Shown piece by piece: positions 7,244 through 64,000 of a stretch of DNA of 64,000 nt. Location of the stretch: IMG/VR virus record IMGVR_UViG_3300010413_000014, positions 1 to 64,000 of that record. One strand, written 5' to 3'. Source of the stretch: a virus. Within the stretch, counting starts at the first letter, position 1; the number at the start of each line of letters is the position of its first letter. The notes below the pieces were generated by a model. It saw only the letters and a list, made by a program, of their open reading frames with translations. It searched no databases and was not told the DNA's origin. Position numbers and translations under genes: made by a program.

Positions 7244-9085
7244 TTATTTGTTGTTGCTCTTTCCTTCCAGCATTCTAGCCTTCGCTTGTTGAAAGATAGA
7301 TTTTCCTGAATATGGATTAGCTTTAGCTACTACTCTGGGCTTAGTATCCCATACAGATTGAGTGTGAGTAGCCACCATCTCGATTGCCTCTGCCGCTATC
7401 TCGCCTGACTCTTCAAGTTTACTGATCTTTTGAGATATTGCTGCCATCTGAGATCCAAACTCTTCCATTCTGGAATTGATTTTCTCAGCCTCCAATTCAT
7501 TCACTTGCTTTTGTAGCTTCGCAATCTCATCAGAAAGAGCTTTGATTGTTCCGAGCATTTCTTTCCGAATCATCTCTTCTTCTTGTTTAGCTTTCAAGTC
7601 GGCAGCCATCTTCTCTTCTTCTGTCATAGGAGTTGCTGCAGTAGGCTTCATAGGTTCTTGTGGAGCTGGTCCTTCATTAAATTCTGCTGCAGGTTCTGTA
7701 GGCATTGCAGGTTCTGCAGGTTCTGCTGGCTCTGCAGGTTCTGCTGGCTCTGCTGGTTCAATCACCGGTTTGATATCAGTGATAACCCAATCTTCAATAA
7801 CTAGAGTCATTCCATCAGCCAATTTTACTTCACCTTGCTCAAAATTCGTGCGATCTCCGATCGCATATTGAGAAGGATCGTTTTGATAGATCTCAACCTC
7901 CCCCCCTTCTGAAGTACTATAGAGTTGATTGATGACATCTTTGTACTGAAGCATCGCTATCACTCTACTCAGAATGTTTAATGTTTTCTTCATATTACTT
8001 AACTTGTGTTTGGTGGCAACTGCTGCCGTTACATATTCTTTTTTCTCGAAATCGATTACCTCGTCAGCAAAGCCTAATTTTACAGCTTCTTCTGGCTTAA
8101 TAAAGGTTTCTTTTTCCATCAATTGCTTGATCGTATCTTCTGGTAATCCTGTGAAAGCCATATACAACTCTCGCATATGAGCTTCAAGCTCTCGCAATTG
8201 ACTTGCATACTCCTCTAACTCATTCGCATTCACGTATTCCAGATTAGGAACCATCGGATCATGAACCATCACTTCACCATACTTTGATATTAGCCGCTTA
8301 TTTGCAACTAACATGATCATCGAAGCAATACTATAAGCATTTGCTGTAACGATCGTTATAACGAATTTTCCCTTCATAGAAAGCTCATTTAACCATCGCA
8401 TGATCTTCATTCCTTCATCAACACTTCCTCCTGGGCTACCGATCTCGAGTCTTAGAATATCAAAACTATCAATATCTCCTGCTTGCTCTTGAAGATTCTT
8501 TAAAGTTACATCCTCAATCACCTCACACTCCATCTTAATGGTAATTGCTCTTGGTTGTGCTACATTCACTGGTTTCGATTTATTCTTAAAACGGTTGAAT
8601 GGATGTCTGGTCATTTTAGAGTTATATAACCATAATCGAAACACTTCTACTTGCACTTCGCTTATGTATCCACATCCAGACCACCCTTCTTCATAATTAC
8701 TTAAATATGCCTGCTTTGCTTCATCGATCGAGCTAAACCCAAACATAACCTTATGTTCATCGAATGCTCTTGTTGTTGGGTTTACTTGATCAATCACATA
8801 GAGATTATCGTTCGAAAAATCAGTACCTAAAAAGACATCGATTGGATCTCCATCTTTACCAACAGTTCCACAAAAGAAGCCATAAGAATGCTGCATTTGT
8901 GTTTCCCAAGATTTGCCATCTAGATCAACACCTCTCCTGATTGAGCCTAATGGATTCTCGATTGCAATCTTAAATCCATTAATTGTAACCTTTCCTTTGG
9001 AATAGTTACCAAACTCTTTCTGCTTTTCTGTTGGATTGATATTCGTTCGCTCTTCTGCAGCTTTAATTCTCTCTTCTAGTTTCAT
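7244..9085 (-). CDS. Prohead protease (ClpP-type) fused to InPase-like and scaffold domains
   Basis: A 613-residue head-maturation protease with three parts. Residues 25-160 match the pyrophosphatase-like domain of phage polyvalent proteins (GKDGDPIDVFLG, FDEHKVMFGFSSIDEA, LSNYEEGWSGCGYI). Residues 175-345 are a ClpP/S49-type serine protease with IGSPGGSVDEGM, the likely nucleophile S252 in NAYSIASM and H275 in VMVHDP. The C-terminal third has a run of Pro-Ala-Glu triplets (about 455-480) and a long coiled coil, as expected of a scaffold that is cleaved off during maturation. Its stop overlaps the tape-measure stop region by one base at 9085, and the capsid gene follows 67 bases later. Protease and scaffold roles are well supported. 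The role of the InPase-like part is unknown. Confidence 0.85.
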   Translation of the reverse strand: MKLEERIKAAEERTNINPTEKQKEFGNYSKGKVTINGFKIAIENPLGSIRRGVDLDGKSWETQMQHSYGFFCGTVGKDGDPIDVFLGTDFSNDNLYVIDQVNPTTRAFDEHKVMFGFSSIDEAKQAYLSNYEEGWSGCGYISEVQVEVFRLWLYNSKMTRHPFNRFKNKSKPVNVAQPRAITIKMECEVIEDVTLKNLQEQAGDIDSFDILRLEIGSPGGSVDEGMKIMRWLNELSMKGKFVITIVTANAYSIASMIMLVANKRLISKYGEVMVHDPMVPNLEYVNANELEEYASQLRELEAHMRELYMAFTGLPEDTIKQLMEKETFIKPEEAVKLGFADEVIDFEKKEYVTAAVATKHKLSNMKKTLNILSRVIAMLQYKDVINQLYSTSEGGEVEIYQNDPSQYAIGDRTNFEQGEVKLADGMTLVIEDWVITDIKPVIEPAEPAEPAEPAEPAEPAMPTEPAAEFNEGPAPQEPMKPTAATPMTEEEKMAADLKAKQEEEMIRKEMLGTIKALSDEIAKLQKQVNELEAEKINSRMEEFGSQMAAISQKISKLEESGEIAAEAIEMVATHTQSVWDTKPRVVAKANPYSGKSIFQQAKARMLEGKSNNK

Positions 9086-15649: not shown

Positions 15650-16470
15650 ATGTCACTTGGCTTGGTGTTTGTTGTTGGTATTTGAGATTCTGAAGCATCC
15701 TTAATCACCTTCAACCTTTCTATCAAAACAAATGACAAATACCACCTACAAACCTAATTAGGTATTTTCTTACACCACTCCTTATTTCTTATCATTGTAG
15801 GATAATTGAGCTTGATTGAGAAAGTTTGATCATTTTCTCAGAAAGGTCTCCAAAATTTGTTTATCTAAGTTTGAAATATTTTTTCTCACACCGAGTGGTA
15901 TTTCTCATACGTTAAGATAGAAATTCCACAAATAAGAAAAATCCTTAATTTGTCAAATTTTTTGCAAGAAGTTAGTTAAACTTTTTAAAGTCAGAATTTC
16001 TCACAAACTTTCTAATTTGTTACTAATTCTATAGAAAATCAATTCTCAAAGGTGCACTATTTGCAGAGAAGCTAGCCTTCATTTTAGAAATCAGAATTTC
16101 TCACAAACCTTGGTATTTCTCATACAAAGATCTACAAATCTTTCAGATAACAAAATCCTCTAATTTCTATAAAAGTTGGACAGAAATTAGACCAACAAAA
16201 CTAATCACCGATTTTCTCACACCAACTGGTATTTGTTATTTATTTGTGAGAAATTCTAAGACGATAGAAAAATCTTAACTTTGTGTCATTATATATGAGA
16301 AACTAGCTTTGGTAATTGTTTGACCATTTTCTCATACGAGCTCTAGTTTCTATCGAATTCGGACACAAAATTCCTCACATGAGAAATCGTCCATCTTTCT
16401 ATTCTCAATAACAAGAAATACGATCTCTAAACTGATCTTTAAATTTCTCACTTGAGAGCTTATTTGTTGC
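15650..16470. repeat. Regularly spaced 26-base motif array (eight units)
   Basis: A motif of the form TTCTCACACC, four variable bases, then GGTATTTCTCAT recurs with its first base at about 15650, 15767, 15883, 15998, 16098, 16214, 16329 and 16445. Intervals are 117, 116, 115, 100, 116, 115 and 116 bases. The roughly 90 bases between motifs are not obviously conserved, except that the same 18-base sequence occurs at 15991 and 16091. The best copies are at 15883, 16098 and 16214; those at 15650, 16329 and 16445 are weak. No ORF crosses the array. A period of 115.5 bases is about eleven helical turns, so sites would face the same side of the DNA. Confidence 0.7.
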
Positions 16471-16554
16471 AGAGAGTGAGAGATTCGAACTCTCGAGACT
16501 TTTACATCTGACGCCTTAGCGGGGCGCTGCTTTCAACCACTCAGCCAACTCTCT
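16470..16554 (-). tRNA. tRNA-Ser (GCU)
   Basis: An 85-base class II tRNA: acceptor AGAGAGT paired with ACTCTCT, D arm GCTGAGTGGTTGAAAGC, anticodon stem GCGCC/GGCGT with loop CCGCTAA (anticodon GCT, serine), a long variable arm, and T arm GAGAG-TTCGAAT-CTCTC. The discriminator is G and no CCA is encoded. Position 33 reads C where almost all tRNAs have T. The gene sits at the edge of the repeat array. Confidence 0.88.
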
Positions 16555-22986: not shown

Positions 22987-23024
22987 GTTCCAAAGTTATG
23001 AAAACAAACGAGCAATAAAATCTG

Positions 23025-23097
23025 TGGAGTTGAAGGGACTTGAACCCTCATCCTCTTCCTTGCAAAAGAAACGCTCAGCCAATTGAGCTACAACCCC
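23025..23097 (-). tRNA. tRNA-Ala (UGC)
   Basis: A 73-base cloverleaf: acceptor GGGGTTG/CAACTCC, D arm GCTC-AATTGGCT-GAGC, anticodon stem TTTCT/GGAAG with loop TTTGCAA (anticodon TGC, alanine), T arm GAGGG-TTCAAGT-CCCTT, discriminator A. CCA is not encoded. It stands between the RNA polymerase gene and the structural genes. Confidence 0.92.
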
Positions 23098-56697: not shown

Positions 56698-57441
56698 TTA
56701 TTTCTTTAAGTTTTTAAGTGCGTTATACGCTGGCTGCAAATCTTCTTCAGTATGAATCGCTCCTCCAGTATTCATACCTAGATACCACCTAATAACATCC
56801 TTTGGATCTTCGAGATCGTTCACATTAAAATAAATATCCAGGTTTTCGCGATCACTCCAAGTTAGATCTGAATAGTTTGCTGCAGCAAACACCTCAAACT
56901 CACCCTTCATGAAGGAGATGATGGCATTTAGTCGTTGCTTCCCATCAACTAAAACCATTGGCTCATCAGCGTTACCTTTTCCCCAACCAGGAGCATTAAA
57001 ATAAATCTCACGACCAGTAGTTCCACCTGATAATAAGAATTCGATATAAGCAATCTTTTGCATATCACTCCAAATATACCCTCTTTGAAAATCAGGGTCC
57101 ATATTAAGATTCCATTGTTCCTTATATCTATCTAAATTAGAGATAATCCTTCGATGCTCTATGATGACTCGATAATAACTTTGTCGTTGAACGAAAGCAA
57201 AATCTTGCACTCTGAAGATTGGTGTACGCTCATCTATTTCAAGAAAGACATTTTTCGTCTCAAAGTAGTTGATAATTGTATCCACATACTTATCTAAAAC
57301 CGAAATCTCAATCGGATTACTATATTGATGCCAAGTGAATCCGATCTCTTTCTTAAATTTCAGAGCTCGTCTATCGATTTGCTCTTGTATTTTAGGAGCT
57401 GATTCGGTATTAAAGATTAATCTCGTTGCTTTTGTTTTCAT
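56698..57441 (-). CDS. DUF262-like (ParB/Srx-fold) protein
   Basis: A 247-residue protein. Its core, NMDPDFQRGYIWSDMQKIAY, IEFLLSGGTTGREIYFNAPG and MVLVDGKQRLNAIISFMKGE, is the DUF262 pattern with the DGQQR-like motif as DGKQR. DUF262 domains are the nucleotide-binding half of GmrSD-type restriction enzymes. Here it is a stand-alone short form without an HNH domain, typical of a phage-specific family. The role (DNA binding, nucleotide hydrolysis or anti-defence) is open. Confidence 0.75.
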   Translation of the reverse strand: MKTKATRLIFNTESAPKIQEQIDRRALKFKKEIGFTWHQYSNPIEISVLDKYVDTIINYFETKNVFLEIDERTPIFRVQDFAFVQRQSYYRVIIEHRRIISNLDRYKEQWNLNMDPDFQRGYIWSDMQKIAYIEFLLSGGTTGREIYFNAPGWGKGNADEPMVLVDGKQRLNAIISFMKGEFEVFAAANYSDLTWSDRENLDIYFNVNDLEDPKDVIRWYLGMNTGGAIHTEEDLQPAYNALKNLKK

Positions 57442-57465
57442 AACTTTGTGTTTGAAATTATGTTC

Positions 57466-57541
57466 TAAAGATAGCTCTAATTAAAGCATAAGACAACATC
57501 TAGTAAAAGAAAAGAGCAGAAATCCAAAAATTTCTGCTCTT
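57466..57541 (-). promoter_or_regulatory. Terminator and host-type promoter
   Basis: Minus strand: stem AAGAGCAGAAAT.../...ATTTCTGCTCTT (57512-57541), GTTG (57494-57497), 20 bases, TATCTTTA (57466-57473), serving the DUF262-like gene. Confidence 0.78.
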
Positions 57542-57587
57542 CTAAAAATTAACCGGGAATAATTTATTTTGCTGATTCTTCAGCAGG

Positions 57588-58097
57588 CTACTCATCTGCC
57601 TTCTCCTGATTAAGAGATTCGGGAAGATACCTCTTCATTACAGTTTGAACTTGGGAATAATAAACCTTCATCTCTTTTTGGATTTCACCAGGCTTTTGAC
57701 CTTTTTTCAGGCGCTCAAGGATTTCAGCGGATTTGGACCCCTCACGCGGAACATCTTGAGCCACTCGAACCTTTTCTTTTGGTGATTGAGGTTCTTTAGA
57801 TATCTTCTTTTCTTTGGGTACCTTGGGCTCTTTTTCTTTCTTGGGTTGCTTAGGTGTCTTTTCAAACTTCTCTTTCTTATTGGAAGGGATCTCGGTACTT
57901 CCAAGCTTCTCAAGTAATTCGTGAATCTGGTCACCAATCTCTGATATTCGCTCATCAGCTTGCTCCTGCGTTGCTTGCAATTCTTCACCTTCGTGAGACT
58001 CTGAGTATTCAGCTATCTCTTTTTCAATGATACTCATCTCTGCCTGGAGATCTTTAATTTGGGTTTTAATTTTAGCCTTGGCTGCTACACTTAACAT
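57588..58097 (-). CDS. Coiled-coil protein with shared C-terminal HTH-like module
   Basis: A 169-residue protein from ATG 58097 (a longer reading would use TTG). It has a coiled-coil N-terminus (IKTQIKDLQAEMSIIEKEIA), a long Lys/Pro/Glu-rich linker (residues 70-115), then a module AEILERLKKGQKPGEIQKEM followed by VYYSQVQTVMKRYLP. This module is nearly identical to the end of the protein at 41544-42125. A DNA-binding regulator is inferred. It ends in TAG. Confidence 0.6.
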   Translation of the reverse strand: MLSVAAKAKIKTQIKDLQAEMSIIEKEIAEYSESHEGEELQATQEQADERISEIGDQIHELLEKLGSTEIPSNKKEKFEKTPKQPKKEKEPKVPKEKKISKEPQSPKEKVRVAQDVPREGSKSAEILERLKKGQKPGEIQKEMKVYYSQVQTVMKRYLPESLNQEKADE

Positions 58098-58144
58098 AAT
58101 AATCAATTTTAAATGAATACTATTTTATTAATATTTCAGAGCTC

Positions 58145-58176
58145 TAAAAATAAGTGACAAATTTCGCTTTTGCAAC
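58145..58176 (-). promoter_or_regulatory. Host-type promoter
   Basis: Minus strand: GTTG (58173-58176), 20 bases, TATTTTTA (58145-58152), about 48 bases before ATG 58097, inside the gap after the polymerase C-half gene. Confidence 0.65.
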
Positions 58177-58188
58177 AGTTGAGATAAA

Positions 58189-60234
58189 TTATTTCAAGAT
58201 TTTGATTCTCGATGATTTATTCAAGGTGAATTGATTGCCTTTTGCCCACTTTACATCATAAGCAAGCTCACCATTGAAAAGGATGATTGATCCTTCACAA
58301 TCTTTCAGATCCTTCTTGAATCGAGCATACTCTTCAGACCATATCATTACATTAAAAAGATTATAATTGGCTTCGATTATCAATCGCATGAACTTACCTT
58401 TGGCGCTCGATCTCTCGACAGCTTGAACAATATAACCTCCAAAACTTCTTATTATTCGATTATGTTGAGGTTGCGATGCTATTTCGATTGAGCAAAATTC
58501 AGATGGAATATCAGTCAGCTCTTCGACCATTTGCTTGTAATCAATAAAAACTAATCCAGTTAATTCCTTTTGCTTCATTTGCCACCACCATCGTTCTTCC
58601 ATTGAGCCTACAGTAAATTGATCGCGATCCGGTTTAGTAACCTTAACCTTTTTATATTCTCTGAATTGCTTTATGAGATTGTTTCGCTTTTCTTCTGCTC
58701 CTTCAATATTCATCAATCGATCAAATGCACCACAAGCTATTAATGCTTCATATGTTTGCTTCTTGACTGCTGATCCCTTATAATTGAAACGATCAATAAA
58801 TTCAATCAGATCTTTGAAGGGACCGTTCTCATTGCGCTCTTCGATTATTTGCTTTGCTGTTTCGAGACCAATGCCTTTGATAGAAGATAGTCCCCAATAG
58901 ATTGTTTTCGATTGTAGATCAGAAGACATCTCCATATCTGATCCGTTGATATCAGCTGATACAATCGATATCTCTTTAGTGTTGAAGATTTCAGAAAGAA
59001 ATTTCAATCCTTTTTCTTTCTTAGCATAATCAAGAGCTACAGTCCAATATTCAATCGGATAATGCACCTTCAAATACTGTGAGGCATATCCAGTCTTTGC
59101 GTAAGCTGCAGCGTGACTACGGTTAAAAGAATACTTAGCAAATTCAAGCAATACATTCCAGATTTCATTGAAGGTTTCTTGTGGACATCCACGAGATAAA
59201 AATCCTTCTTCAACTCGATCTCTCCACGCTTTCAACACCTTCTCCTTCTTTTTACCCATCGCTCGACGCACATCATCTGCCTCCATATCTGACAATCCTC
59301 CGATCTGCGAGCAAACCTGCATTATCTGTTCCTGATAACACAAAATTCCATATGTATCTTTCGTGATATTCTCCATGCCCCACAGATACTCAACAGGTCG
59401 TCCTTCATTCTTACATTTTACATAGATCTCGTGATAATGATTCTCCATTGGACCAGGACGACACAATGCAACTGCAGCAATCAAATCTTCAATTGACTTC
59501 GGCTTTAGTGACCGAGTATATCCTACTTGAGTATCTGTTCCGAATTGGAATACATCTCCACTCCATCCATTTGAAAAGTAACGATACACTTCAGGATCTT
59601 CAGGAAGGTTGTAAATATCGGGTTTTTCTTTACCATTCTTCTCAATCAGATTCAAGATATCAGTAAATTTATCCAACTGCTTGATCCCAAGGATATCCTC
59701 CTTTAAGAATCCTGCATCATCCATCTCACCTCCACCCCACTCACTAACAATTAAAGGAGTGCTTTGTCCTTTAGGTCGAACCTTTCGAAGTGGACACCAC
59801 TCTTCACCTTTCAAAGTATCAGGAAAGATGATCATCGCACATGAGTGTATTGATCGGGTTTTTGGTTGCTCTAGAATTGAAGGCATCATACGAAAGATTT
59901 GAGATTGTTGCTTGATATAGCGTTTCAATCTCGGCTCTTTCGCAGCTCTTTTAAAGAGATCTTTCATAGAGATATCTTCATTATCAATGATCGCAGTCAT
60001 TAAATTAGCCATTGCGAAATCATTGTCGAACTGCTTATCGAGATCTTTCAATACACCCTTCAATTGTAGTGTTGTAAAGGTTCCAACACTACATACTTGA
60101 GTTTCGCCAAATCTACGTTCCATATAAGCCTTAACTGCTGGACGATCGCGTCCTGCAAAATCAGTATCAACGTCTGGCAATGTACCGTTAATCAGCTTTT
60201 TACCGACAACTTGTTTGATTTCTAATACTTTCAT
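58189..60234 (-). CDS. dnaE: DNA polymerase III alpha subunit, C-terminal half
   Basis: A 681-residue protein that begins just before the catalytic palm: after 18 leader residues comes LPDVDTDFAGRDRP with the two catalytic aspartates, then VCSVGTFTTLQLKG, IEDLIAAVALCRPGPMENHY (fingers), and AAYAKTGYASQYLKVHYPIE. A helix-hairpin-helix (LSSIKGIGLETAKQIIEERN) and an OB-fold end follow. It needs the N-half at 61117-62742 for the PHP part and the first palm strand. Its start overlaps the PAPS-reductase-like stop (60231-60234). C-terminal tau and beta contacts are not clear. Confidence 0.92.
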   Translation of the reverse strand: MKVLEIKQVVGKKLINGTLPDVDTDFAGRDRPAVKAYMERRFGETQVCSVGTFTTLQLKGVLKDLDKQFDNDFAMANLMTAIIDNEDISMKDLFKRAAKEPRLKRYIKQQSQIFRMMPSILEQPKTRSIHSCAMIIFPDTLKGEEWCPLRKVRPKGQSTPLIVSEWGGGEMDDAGFLKEDILGIKQLDKFTDILNLIEKNGKEKPDIYNLPEDPEVYRYFSNGWSGDVFQFGTDTQVGYTRSLKPKSIEDLIAAVALCRPGPMENHYHEIYVKCKNEGRPVEYLWGMENITKDTYGILCYQEQIMQVCSQIGGLSDMEADDVRRAMGKKKEKVLKAWRDRVEEGFLSRGCPQETFNEIWNVLLEFAKYSFNRSHAAAYAKTGYASQYLKVHYPIEYWTVALDYAKKEKGLKFLSEIFNTKEISIVSADINGSDMEMSSDLQSKTIYWGLSSIKGIGLETAKQIIEERNENGPFKDLIEFIDRFNYKGSAVKKQTYEALIACGAFDRLMNIEGAEEKRNNLIKQFREYKKVKVTKPDRDQFTVGSMEERWWWQMKQKELTGLVFIDYKQMVEELTDIPSEFCSIEIASQPQHNRIIRSFGGYIVQAVERSSAKGKFMRLIIEANYNLFNVMIWSEEYARFKKDLKDCEGSIILFNGELAYDVKWAKGNQFTLNKSSRIKILK

Positions 60235-61115
60235 CTATAATCAACGTTAATATAGTCTAATACAGCTCCACAACCTAATTTATTGATACAGTAATTATAG
60301 AGTGCGGGGTGAGTGATCTTCATTTTTTGAAATTTATTTACTTCTGTCTCTAAATGAATTCCGAACATACAAAAAATACATCCCGTTCGATCATATCCTT
60401 TATCGTATATTGTAGAGTATTGAATACTAAATTTATCAATATATTCCCAAATATCCTCTTCCTTCCAAATTGCTAAAGGATTACTCACCGCCCTCTTTCC
60501 TTCAAATGAATTACACCCCTGTCTCATCCAAGTAGATCGTCGCAAAAAAGATTCTGAAGCCATTGTTCCTATAAAAGGTTTTAGTCCTGTTTCTTTTTCA
60601 TATTTTTTAGCTGGATCTTTTTTGAGATATTGGCAACATTTGTGTGATATAGGAAAAGGGGCTTGAATTAAATATTGCCACTTTTTCGATATTCTGCCTA
60701 AAGAAGAGTTATTAACTCCACTTAAACGTAATTCTCTTAATTTATCGCTATGTGTTGTGCGATACTCATAAATAAATTGAGATTGTTCTTTTGAGATGAC
60801 TGGATAACCATACTTTTCAATAACTTGTTTGAAGTTTTTTTTAGGCTTTAACCAAGTAACATTATCAATAGTTTTGATAAATTCTCTAATCTCAGGAAAC
60901 TCTAATCCTGTATCTACAAATACTGCTGGAATATCAGGATTAATTCTCCTAACTAAATCCAATAAAACCAAACTATCTTTCCCTCCGGAAAAGGAGATAT
61001 ACATTTGATCTTCAAAGTGCGATAACGCTGCACTGATAACATTTAAAGAATGAGCTACTTTATATTCCAAAGATTCATCTTGAAGCTCTTTTAATAATTT
61101 TAAGTTTCGATCCAT
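60231..61115 (-). CDS. PAPS reductase-like (adenine nucleotide alpha-hydrolase fold) protein
   Basis: A 294-residue protein lying between the two polymerase halves. It has the P-loop-like MYISFSGGKDSLVLLDLVRR, then AVFVDTGLEFPEIREFI, HKCCQYLKKDPAKKYEKET, and the cysteine-containing GYDRTGCIFCMFGIH, as in PAPS/DndC-type family members with a possible Fe-S or zinc site. It could act in sulfur transfer to DNA, RNA or nucleotide, but no partner genes (DndD or similar) are in the window. It starts one base after the N-half stop and overlaps the C-half start, so all three are coupled. Confidence 0.85.
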   Translation of the reverse strand: MDRNLKLLKELQDESLEYKVAHSLNVISAALSHFEDQMYISFSGGKDSLVLLDLVRRINPDIPAVFVDTGLEFPEIREFIKTIDNVTWLKPKKNFKQVIEKYGYPVISKEQSQFIYEYRTTHSDKLRELRLSGVNNSSLGRISKKWQYLIQAPFPISHKCCQYLKKDPAKKYEKETGLKPFIGTMASESFLRRSTWMRQGCNSFEGKRAVSNPLAIWKEEDIWEYIDKFSIQYSTIYDKGYDRTGCIFCMFGIHLETEVNKFQKMKITHPALYNYCINKLGCGAVLDYINVDYR

Positions 61116-61116
61116 T

Positions 61117-62742
61117 TCAATATTTTAAAATTTTATCACTCTCTTGTAAATCCTGAATGAAGGTAATCCATTCTTCTCCCTTTCGCAACACCCTTAAAAG
61201 AGATCCTTCATTTAAAATAATCACCTTTTCGTCGGTTACGATCTCATATGCTTTACAATCCACCAGCTCACCCATACGTCCTTCATTCAAGAACCTTGAA
61301 AACAGTAGATCGAACTCAAGTGGATCGATTTGAATCAAGCCTAACAAATACGATACAAGTGATCCTCCTGCAGATCCACGTCCAATACCAGTAAGCAGCT
61401 TCTCTCTTTTTGCAAATCCAATGATATCATGCAGCACTAGAAAGTAATCGATAACATCACCTCGTTTCAATACACTGATCTCAGTCTTTAATCGATCAAC
61501 ATATCTCTGTGGATCTTGAATATTACGTTCTTTGAACCCCTTTTTGATCAGATGTAAGAACAGCTCTTCGTTTGATTTGAACTGCTCCGCTTCTTCTGGT
61601 GTCATCTTGTATTTAGGGAGTCGTCGACTAGTAGTATCATAGACAAAATTACACTCTTGAACTACTTGATCCAAGTTCTGATGAGCTCTTTTGAACAAAG
61701 GAATCCAGCTCTTACAATCATCTTCGAACATCTGAATAAGTTCTTTAGCATATTCATCAGAACTTCGCATGTATTGATTCTTTGACCTAAAGTCAAATGC
61801 CTTCCCAATCTTCCATAATGCTTCTCGAGCCTCCCAATCCGATTGCTCTGGATAGTATGCATCATAGATAGCAATCGGTTCTAAGTTACTCGTAAGGAAT
61901 TGCTCATAATTATTAACGAACTCTTCATCCTTATCAGAACTTTCAAAGCGAACTGTCTCTAGTTGATAGTATGCTCCTGGAATATTCGGTCGATCTTTCC
62001 ACATCATTGTCTTGGGATCATACACAATTACCAGATCTCTAGAGTTTTCAATCAAGAATTCTGGAGATATAGCTACCTCTTCATCCACATTAAGTTTTGT
62101 ACTAAACTTCAGTAGGTTTAACCAACCTTGAAATCCTTTAGCATAGCACTTTATGAGGTAGAATGGTCCATTGTCGATTCGAATTGGAACTGTCATGCCG
62201 ATAATCGACTTAATATCATTAGCTTGACATTGATTCTGAAAATCAATAACGCCTGCTAATGTCGATTTTTCGCAAATTCCAAGTGCTTCGATACCAAGAA
62301 ACTTTGCCTTCTTGATCCAATCTGCATATAATCCCAATCCGTTAAGCAATTCATATCCAGAATGAACACCCAAAAATGCCTTAGTTGGAAGTTTTTGAAC
62401 AGCTTTCCCAATGTTCTTTAGTTCTGTCAATTCAGCTTCCTCTACTTCTTTGTGCTGCAGATACCATCGACCTCCAAATTCATACACCCAACCATCTTCA
62501 GGTATTGAGGTACCTGAATCAACTTCATATTCAAGCATCCTTCCAAATCCTTCAGAGTACTCTCTTTCGACTTTTGGAAGTAAAGATTGAGCTGGCAAAA
62601 AATTGAAATCCTCATCAAATAAAAGACGATCATCTGTTATAATGAGATACTCTTTCTCATCTAAACAGAGCACATCGTCTTTAATAGAGAAGTTGAGCAG
62701 TATTTTTCTACAATACTGTTCTAATTTTTTAATTTGATTCAT
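61117..62742 (-). CDS. dnaE: DNA polymerase III alpha subunit, N-terminal half
   Basis: A 541-residue protein. Residues 120-190 are a PHP-like domain (TKAFLGVHSGYELLNG; LGICEKSTLAGVIDF) in which the TDH-type metal-binding motif has become CEKS, so exonuclease activity is unlikely. Palm text GIGRGSAGGSLVSYLLGLIQ, IDPLEFDLLFSRFLNEGR follows. After residue 491 there is a 50-residue beta-rich tail (VDCKAYEIVTDEKVIILNEG...) that does not belong to a normal palm, and the ORF stops. The catalytic DxD follows only in the gene at 58189-60234. A 150-residue N-terminal extension precedes the PHP part. Confidence 0.88.
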   Translation of the reverse strand: MNQIKKLEQYCRKILLNFSIKDDVLCLDEKEYLIITDDRLLFDEDFNFLPAQSLLPKVEREYSEGFGRMLEYEVDSGTSIPEDGWVYEFGGRWYLQHKEVEEAELTELKNIGKAVQKLPTKAFLGVHSGYELLNGLGLYADWIKKAKFLGIEALGICEKSTLAGVIDFQNQCQANDIKSIIGMTVPIRIDNGPFYLIKCYAKGFQGWLNLLKFSTKLNVDEEVAISPEFLIENSRDLVIVYDPKTMMWKDRPNIPGAYYQLETVRFESSDKDEEFVNNYEQFLTSNLEPIAIYDAYYPEQSDWEAREALWKIGKAFDFRSKNQYMRSSDEYAKELIQMFEDDCKSWIPLFKRAHQNLDQVVQECNFVYDTTSRRLPKYKMTPEEAEQFKSNEELFLHLIKKGFKERNIQDPQRYVDRLKTEISVLKRGDVIDYFLVLHDIIGFAKREKLLTGIGRGSAGGSLVSYLLGLIQIDPLEFDLLFSRFLNEGRMGELVDCKAYEIVTDEKVIILNEGSLLRVLRKGEEWITFIQDLQESDKILKY

Positions 62743-62745
62743 ATT

Positions 62746-62961
62746 TTATCTTTCGATTAATAATCCTTTTTTAACTCGATCAACTAATCCGATAACTAGA
62801 TCCATACTTACATTATGCTTCTTAGAAACCTTATAAGTGTCAGAATCAATCTTCCAAGAATTCCAAATAGCTTGTTGCTTTTCAGACATTCTCTTGGGAG
62901 AGGCACTTTTCTTTTCTTTTCTGATAATCATATTTCTAGTTGAATTGCTCATTGCTCTCAT
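62746..62961 (-). CDS. Small basic HTH-like protein
   Basis: A 71-residue Lys-rich protein with a possible helix-turn-helix (DTYKVSKKHNVSMDLVIGLV). It starts right after the common leader and promoter and ends three bases before the polymerase N-half, as the first gene of that operon. It may regulate or bind near its own promoter; unproven. Confidence 0.55.
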   Translation of the reverse strand: MRAMSNSTRNMIIRKEKKSASPKRMSEKQQAIWNSWKIDSDTYKVSKKHNVSMDLVIGLVDRVKKGLLIER

Positions 62962-62990
62962 AACTTTGTGTTTTATTTGTTTTCAATATT

Positions 62991-63053
62991 TAAAGATACG
63001 GCCATTTGATATATCTAGTAACAGGTAGAGGAAAAATTTCGTTAAATTTTTCC
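62991..63053 (-). promoter_or_regulatory. Terminator and host-type promoter of polymerase operon
   Basis: Minus strand: stem GGAAAAATT/AATTTTTCC (63030-63053) after the gene at 63083, then GTTA (63019-63022), 20 bases, TATCTTTA (62991-62998), leading to ATG 62961. Confidence 0.65.
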
Positions 63054-63082
63054 TTTACCAACAAACAAAAACACAAAAACTA

Positions 63083-63916
63083 TTATTTGACAGCTTTCAA
63101 AGCGTGGCGGATGCATGCATCTGTAAAGCCAAGCGCCTCTTTAATTTCTTTCACTGAAGGTGTTGCCTCAAAGCTCTTGATATACTCCAAGATCTGTTCC
63201 TTTTTGCTTCCCTTCTTCTCAGTGTCATCAGAAGTTTGTTTTTCAGACTTCTGCTTAGGCTTCTTTTCGATGTAGACTTTAGTTGGAGCTTTAGGTTCAA
63301 CGATTGGATCGGGACGATCTCCAAACAAACTATCAATAGCTTGCTCTACATCTGGATTGATATCTTCAACTTCACTCACAGACTCATCAACTTTGATTAA
63401 TGTTTCGAGATCTGGATGAATGAATGTGTTCTTGATAGTAAGGTTGGAGTAAAAAGCTTTCTGATACTCGGTAATGTTAGATGCATTTTGTAATGAATAT
63501 AAAGCAACAATCAACTTAAGCCGATCTTCACACATCAAAAAGAACATCATCTGACCAACAATTGAATCGTAATCTTTGCGATCCAGTTTCATCATCTCTA
63601 CTCTCATCAAAGCTGCATCGTAGATTTGATCTAAAGTGAATTCAGTCTTTTGAGCCTTTGAAGCTTTTGGAGCCTCGTTATCGATAATGAGTGGTCCTGT
63701 TGGAGCTTCAAAGACTACTTCTTTAACTTCTGTCTCCTCAACCTTCGATCCATCACAATTCAAAACTAATGATGCTTTTCCAATAACTTCAATCTTATCA
63801 ACTCCTAACAGAGTGCCAGATAAACTGCATCGTGAACATTTATAAACATCTCCTTCAGGAGATTCTTGTTTTTGGAAAGAGTGACGATTATCACTCAGCT
63901 CGAATACTTTTTTCAT
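63083..63916 (-). CDS. Zinc-finger and HTH-like protein, unknown
   Basis: A 277-residue protein. The N-terminus has a zinc-finger-like YKCSRCSLSGTLLG and later LNCDG. A central helical domain (FTLDQIYDAALMRVEMMKLD) is followed by a Lys/Pro-rich linker. The C-terminus (KKEQILEYIKSFEATPSVKE; ALGFTDACIRHALKAVK) resembles the HTH-like modules at the ends of 41544-42125 and 57588-58097 in place and style. A DNA-binding regulatory protein is inferred. Confidence 0.55.
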   Translation of the reverse strand: MKKVFELSDNRHSFQKQESPEGDVYKCSRCSLSGTLLGVDKIEVIGKASLVLNCDGSKVEETEVKEVVFEAPTGPLIIDNEAPKASKAQKTEFTLDQIYDAALMRVEMMKLDRKDYDSIVGQMMFFLMCEDRLKLIVALYSLQNASNITEYQKAFYSNLTIKNTFIHPDLETLIKVDESVSEVEDINPDVEQAIDSLFGDRPDPIVEPKAPTKVYIEKKPKQKSEKQTSDDTEKKGSKKEQILEYIKSFEATPSVKEIKEALGFTDACIRHALKAVK

Positions 63917-63918
63917 GA

Positions 63919-64000
63919 TTAAATTTCTTCGTATGTAAATTTACATTTAACTTCAAGTTTATTCAACTCATCCTCCAACATCTCTTGCTCCTCATCATCT
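63919..64000 (-). CDS. C-terminal end of an upstream gene (partial)
   Basis: The last 26 codons of a minus-strand ORF (acidic text DDEEQEMLEDELNKLEVKCK, then FTYEEI) ending in TAA at 63919-63921. The rest lies beyond the window. It ends just two bases before the ATG of the gene at 63916. Nothing can be said of function. Confidence 0.55.
   Translation of the reverse strand, partial: DDEEQEMLEDELNKLEVKCKFTYEEI

Follow-up and report, generated by a model that had tools for sequence, protein, structure and literature searches.

The replicative DNA polymerase encoded in the window, a 64,000-nucleotide stretch of viral DNA (positions 1 to 64,000 of the IMG/VR record IMGVR_UViG_3300010413_000014), is divided between two polypeptides, an N-half and a C-half, which are the two halves of one C-family enzyme broken within its palm. 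The N-half ends in a beta-rich tail of about 50 residues and the C-half begins with a short leader; tail and leader are very probably descended from the two parts of a split intein, in which splicing has almost certainly been lost. The split is fixed in the whole clade of phages that includes the window (clade A) and recurs in a separate clade (clade B), and it is therefore not unique to the window. As an explanation of the whole, we consider it likely that the polymerase was split by a split intein that is now dead and whose remnant has been retained as the interface between the two chains. Judged from its virion, terminase, portal, N4-like RNA polymerase and primase/helicase genes, and from its closest polymerase relatives among phage records (phiST and allies), the record is that of a Cbastvirus-like phage.

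A replicative polymerase divided within the palm

Both halves lie on the minus strand. The N-half of the DNA polymerase III alpha subunit (DnaE type; 61117–62742, an open reading frame (ORF) of 541 residues) carries the PHP domain and the opening portion of the palm, as far as RFLNEGRMG, followed by the tail ELVDCKAYEIVTDEKVIILNEGSLLRVLRKGEEWITFIQDLQESDKILKY (61120–61269). The C-half (58189–60234, 681 residues) opens with the leader and the residue that follows it, MKVLEIKQVVGKKLING/T (60181–60234; here and below a slash marks the boundary at the insertion site), and continues with the catalytic palm motif LPDVDTDF (60157–60180), the first C-extein residues, the remainder of the palm, and the fingers, HHH and OB-like domains. 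The features of a C-family DnaE (PHP, palm, fingers and HHH) are thus all present, with Pfam and NCBIfam matches spread across both chains: the PHP domain in the N-half, the finger domain and HHH_6 in the C-half, and DNA_pol3_alpha (PF07733) shared between them, with model positions 3–98 in the N-half and 100–260 in the C-half. This division of a single model places the break in the palm, immediately before LPDVDTDF, which is itself kept. The PHROGs families already end and begin at the break, the N-half matching phrog_13169 to its last position (463/463) and the C-half matching phrog_12219 from position 1. A fold search with the full N-half model returned solved DnaE and PHP structures only, and a Pfam search of the 75.8 kb virus record found no second PF07733 match.

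Read on into the C-half, the frame of the N-half meets 35 stops, and therefore no single-base change joins the two ORFs, an outcome that the original prediction had said would alter its reading. That prediction, made from the DNA before the present analysis, had described an N-half, a PAPS-reductase-like gene and a C-half starting 18 residues before LPDVDTDF, with the split running through the active-site domain itself; all three ORFs were recovered at exactly the coordinates it gave, and the complementary PF07733 matches bear out a cut within the palm.

Distribution of the break

An identical break was found in 16 further clade-A loci, four from cultured phages (Cellulophaga phages phiST, phi19:2 and phi13:1 and Tenacibaculum phage Larrie) and twelve from distinct IMG/VR contigs; in the cultured-phage records examined, each half bears the annotation 'DNA polymerase III alpha subunit'. 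All clade-A N-halves seen whole have the tail of about 50 residues, and all C-halves have a short leader except that of locus L044, where the leader is unclear. The second group with the break, clade B, comprises Bacteroides phage BS-TP1, the human-gut contig MT835494 and the IMG/VR loci L050, L056, L068, L070, L071, L075, L078, L080, L082 and L100. The leader is more eroded in L023, L068 and L075. In the tree of C-halves, the 14 rows of clade A and the 5 rows of clade B each form one clade (100/100) and intact, insert-free polymerases are placed between them; given this placement, a single vertical origin for the break in both clades is not favoured.

The search for homologues in which the two halves form one chain, proposed with the original prediction, returned intact palms without any insert in L020 (RFLNEGRVGKSLPDID; RFLNEGRVGK/SLPDID), L012 (RFLNEGRVQTSLPDID) and L047, and a contiguous intein at the same site in L122. 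Broken homologues that lack the tail and leader, which the prediction had named as evidence against itself, were not what we found among these loci, where the broken homologues have the tail and nearly all a recognisable leader. A search of genome contigs matched only a bacterial chromosomal DnaE, and no natural single-chain form of the dead domain was found in IMG/VR. In L021 (6336–6560; Bacteroides phage DAC23) an intact single-chain DnaE has an insert of ~50–60 residues at the same palm site, ending EGHI/SLPDVD, which is possibly a contiguous dead intein remnant.

Two adjoining ORFs of this kind could also arise by a frameshift, an assembly error or the decay of a gene, and the clade-A relative L007 is indeed out of frame just after LPDI. 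The frame of the N-half is interrupted by 35 stops before the C-half, many contigs and four cultured phage genomes share the break, and active-site residues are conserved in both halves; the probability left to this explanation is negligible, and the clade-wide occurrence of the break already refutes it.

Three further loci may be mentioned here. L007 (5983–11914) has two more inteins: the palm holds one, split at GRG/C and bearing an endonuclease-like tail, and the fingers hold the other. In L130 (5–4447) the split is likewise a dead one, and a GIY-YIG-like gene persists in the slot between its two halves; these resemble the intact L009 and not clade A, and the locus is perhaps a further independent case. 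In L088 (652–2702) DnaE has two interruptions, the first at this palm position (RFLSSSRAKLP...) and the second in the fingers, where a LAGLIDADG-like ORF intervenes; both are perhaps introns.

Tail and leader as probable remnants of a split intein

A scan for HN[S/T/C]xPDxDxD was used to find phage DnaE genes with an intein at this palm site. In L122 a contiguous intein lies exactly at the site (RFLSKKKA/CLGEDS...LSHN/SLPDID), and in L118–L121 the intein there is split, with an N-part CLLPTTYVL...DEFIKML that ends EVRADEIRETDEFIKML before a stop codon, a C-part MKIKQINK...DHTFFVSD...LTHN/SFPDID (LVDIGVEGDHTFFVSDKPNGNFFLTHN/SFPDID), and an endonuclease-like gene between the two parts. The window tail ends ITFIQDLQESDKILKY before its stop codon and the leader starts MKVLEIKQ, a cut point identical to that of the L118–L121 split inteins. 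The inteins of L117–L122 are termed active here from their complete splicing residues alone. Among all solved structures the best match of the active inteins at this site is the gp41-1 intein (E=1.1e-9), and they belong with the inteins of phage 'fractured genes', reportedly described by Dassa et al. in 2009 as genes of phages that a split intein has cut in two, the pieces flanking an endonuclease gene.

The resemblance extends to the sequence of the tail itself. A hidden Markov model (HMM) built from clade-A tails only, with no palm residues, and run against 10,923 ORFs matched clade-B tails from 6e-6 and the N-inteins of L117 (2.7e-5), L121 (1.7e-4), L120 (3.8e-4), L118 (0.004) and L122 (0.02), the first unrelated ORF appearing only at 0.85. 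Comparison of tail plus leader with the active inteins by hhalign gave 98.8%, in an alignment which includes eight palm residues, and the tail-plus-leader profile placed inteins on top when compared with all PDB sequences (5o9j, E=0.0014; 9hth, 0.006), with four more inteins at E 0.8–1.7. Pfam Intein_splicing matches three members, at best with 7e-4. AlphaFold predicts the tail as five strands at high confidence, both within the full N-half and alone, and a Foldseek search with the tail model has inteins as the top three of 31 PDB matches (root mean square deviations of 1.4, 1.5 and 2.6 Å). Similarity to the Hint/intein superfamily is hence found by profile and by fold, at an intein insertion site. 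The original prediction, in proposing that tail and leader may be the two parts of an ancestral inserted domain that now joins the halves without a covalent bond, was essentially right, with the joining as its inferred part; in other phages the same site holds either a contiguous intein (L122) or an active-looking split intein with the same cut point (L117–L121), and the domain is best read as a dead split intein, although the prediction did not identify it as an intein.

Some observations count against this reading. For the 51-residue model no Foldseek match reaches a significant E-value (best 1.9), so that the ranking alone is informative. A search with the tail-only alignment A9 matches P-type ATPase actuator domains, over a stretch of 24 residues, at E=7e-4, as against 0.06 for the best intein; the short motif alone is therefore not specific, and the site and the cut point carry much weight. 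The tail-plus-leader profiles came from the joining of two chains in silico, and clade-A leaders are too short to carry much intein signal alone. The polymerases with active inteins at this site, moreover, are placed far away in the polymerase tree, so that intein descent would have been by horizontal spread and not vertical. The A9 alignment and the weak Foldseek values would suit an unrelated small beta insert, SH3-like or P-type ATPase actuator-like, that happens to resemble intein block B. We regard such an origin as improbable, since it must contend with an insertion site and a cut point that are the same as in active-looking split inteins, with clade-B leaders that keep a VxD...H(N to G/A)/S pattern, with an HMM search in which only this site's inteins and clade-B tails score below 0.1, and with fold matches whose top three are all inteins.

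Loss of the splicing residues

Across 22 split polymerases the terminal residue of the leader is never Asn, being Gly in 21 and Ala in one, and the +1 residue is Ser or Thr in every case; in the window leader, aligned to active C-inteins and to the less eroded clade-B leaders, the putative C-intein remnant has Gly for the terminal Asn and retains a +1 Thr. The window tail, read as the block-B region of an N-intein, lacks the first catalytic residue and TxxH. In the block-B region TxxH is absent from all 22 tails, the pattern being matched only in the C-terminal extension of L050 and L100, and no first nucleophile (Cys/Ser) is conserved at the start of the tail: an early Cys occurs in 5 of the 22 (window, L006, L007, L026 and L028), and the position is Arg in most of clade A (Arg-Pro). 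Compared with the active inteins, the remnant has lost the opening part of the N-intein as well as the DHTFFVSD loop. Erosion has gone further in clade A than in clade B, where VxD...H(G/A)/S can still be read.

Could the halves still be joined by trans-splicing, through an unorthodox minimal intein? Their homology to split inteins and the +1 Ser/Thr in 22/22 would allow it, and the early Cys of those five tails leaves some doubt. However, the inteins known to us need cyclisation of a C-terminal Asn (rarely Gln or Asp), which is here replaced by Gly or Ala throughout, there is no TxxH where block B would be, Arg stands in place of the early Cys in most of the clade, and the N-intein has lost its opening part. 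Because the splicing residues are gone in all 22 cases, trans-splicing of the halves appears very unlikely from the sequences.

The slot between the halves

In the window, the slot between the halves holds a PAPS-reductase-like gene on the same strand (60231–61115, 294 residues), and the endonuclease gene of the fractured-gene arrangement is not there. The stop TGA of the N-half (61119–61117) is separated by one base from the ATG of this gene at 61115 (TGA-A-ATG, 61115–61119), and its own stop overlaps the start of the C-half in an ATGA (60231–60234), an arrangement suggestive of translational coupling; the original prediction of tight coupling through a one-base gap and an ATGA overlap holds to the base. 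The protein matches Pfam PF01507 (E=3.9e-29) and phrog_424, and at 71.6 bits falls far below the NCBIfam CysH cut-off of 165.1. Its PP-loop SGGKDS and its CC and GCxFC cysteines suggest an iron-sulphur PP-loop enzyme. The closest phage relatives, at 44–46%, are from Clostridioides and Ruminococcus phages. The gene has the lowest GC content (31.6%) and the lowest GC at third codon positions among the 32 window genes, which fits a later arrival, although its codon usage is ordinary for the genome; it may have been acquired recently.

A PAPS-reductase-like gene is absent from the slot of all other clade-A loci, and a role for this protein as a polymerase partner was rejected, since no relative has it in the slot and 0/5 viral loci with a PAPS relative have polymerase matches. 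The gene is not part of the mechanism but an occupant of the slot in the window genome only. Elsewhere the slot is empty or a few bases long (L003, L004, L006, L014, L026, phi13:1 and Larrie) or a short gap (L016), or it holds an ORF of 81–83 residues (L013, L028, L038 and L042), six genes including MazG-like and HD-domain-like ones as read by eye from the sequence (L043, 3931–6979; L044, 1678–4723), a Pif1/Dda helicase (BS-TP1), N6/N4 methylase and HNH-type genes (MT835494), a NUMOD4/HNH gene (L071, with HNH also in L023) or a GIY-YIG-like gene (L130, a weak Pfam match below the cut-off). These varied contents mark the slot as a point of repeated insertion, as expected of a former endonuclease position. 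A group I or group II intron was also considered and rejected, the halves being 2 nt apart or overlapping in several relatives and Rfam giving nothing in 57000–64000.

Other features of the window include a gene with a GmrSD_N (DUF262) domain downstream of the polymerase (56698–57441), possibly related to defence or counter-defence, a head maturation protease (7244–9085) with N-terminal similarity to DarB-like antirestriction families of PHROGs, and two tRNA genes for Ser(GCT) (16469–16554) and Ala(TGC) (23024–23097).

Proposed history and function of the remnant

We propose that a split intein like those of 'fractured genes' invaded an ancestral polymerase at the conserved site in the palm that immediately precedes the catalytic aspartates, a homing-endonuclease gene then standing between the two halves of the host gene. 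In this phage clade splicing would since have been lost and the intein reduced to some 50 + 18 residues, the change running, as we infer, from active to dead intein. The two polypeptides would remain separate and assemble as a two-chain polymerase, the remnant Hint halves most likely forming an interlocking beta clamp across the palm, and the former endonuclease slot would now take unrelated genes such as that of the window. We are confident that the two chains make a polymerase that works, and the pair would be expected to have polymerase activity. The tail is without truncation throughout clades A and B, in the N-halves seen whole, and for the two closest clade-A pairs the ratio of non-synonymous to synonymous substitution rates (dN/dS) in the tail comes to about 0.15 and 0.22, albeit over few sites, which suggests purifying selection; the tail is therefore probably used. 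The halves of split inteins bind each other tightly before splicing, and the simplest use would therefore be as a non-covalent clamp that holds the palm halves together. Such a clamp is reasonably probable.

The halves might instead re-associate through the palm and neighbouring domains, the tail and leader being idle intein remains. The domain is clearly shrunken, above all in clade A, and there are precedents that assemble without an intein, the split NrdA of phage Aeh1 and gp43A/43B of Aeromonas phage 25 (PMC2988022). A relic without function is nonetheless unlikely, given a tail that is untruncated in all whole N-halves of both clades, a dN/dS well below 1 in the two closest pairs (on small counts) and a fold predicted as a confident five-stranded unit. 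We lean slightly towards the wider view that in at least two phage lineages a parasite that once spliced has become the obligate subunit interface of a replicative polymerase, maintained by selection as a non-covalent clamp through the active-site domain once its chemistry was gone, with the vacated endonuclease slot serving as an insertion platform for other genes.

Broken polymerases and fractured genes with active split inteins are already known, and split inteins are familiar both as working tools and as parasites. In the literature searched, which was partial, we found no published account of a replicative polymerase whose break retains a split intein that can no longer splice, and the fate of the host protein once splicing dies has apparently not been shown before for such an enzyme. 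Here the stages stand side by side at one gene site: no intein; a contiguous intein; an active-looking split intein with an endonuclease-like gene; a dead split intein with an endonuclease gene; and a dead, shrunken one with other genes or none. If the explanation is true, it would show concretely how a selfish element can leave an obligatory protein interface in its wake, in a system accessible in cultured phages (phiST on Cellulophaga baltica), and one that offers natural non-splicing heterodimer tags and a two-chain DnaE with switchable palm assembly.

Comparison with known systems

As in fractured genes, the window has a host gene in two pieces, with intein halves at the facing ends and a free-standing gene between them; unlike in those genes, the intein of the window and its clades appears unable to splice, so that the gene stays broken at the protein level, and the slot holds unrelated genes or nothing. 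The fractured-gene work of Dassa et al. 2009 is cited in PMC6892783 and PMC10448857. The former also describes phage MIJ3, in which DNA polymerase B is split, with a split intein and an HNH gene, and in which intein blocks A, B, F and G are reported intact (PMC6892783). MIJ3 resembles the window in that a split intein marks the break of a replicative phage polymerase and a gene separates the two pieces, but it has a family B polymerase with intact intein blocks, where the window has a C-family enzyme and a putatively dead intein. The split NrdA of phage Aeh1 is fully functional, and the split gp43A/43B polymerase of Aeromonas phage 25 co-purifies with polymerase activity (PMC2988022). Both resemble the window in that an essential phage enzyme is made as two chains around an inserted gene, and both are active without ligation; they differ in that no intein remnant is described at their ends and in belonging to other protein families. 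The split DnaE of cyanobacteria (Synechocystis, Npu) is a member of the same enzyme family and likewise has split intein halves at its ends. There the intein site lies further towards the C terminus and the intein is active, whereas in the window the site is in the palm and the intein is, in all probability, dead.

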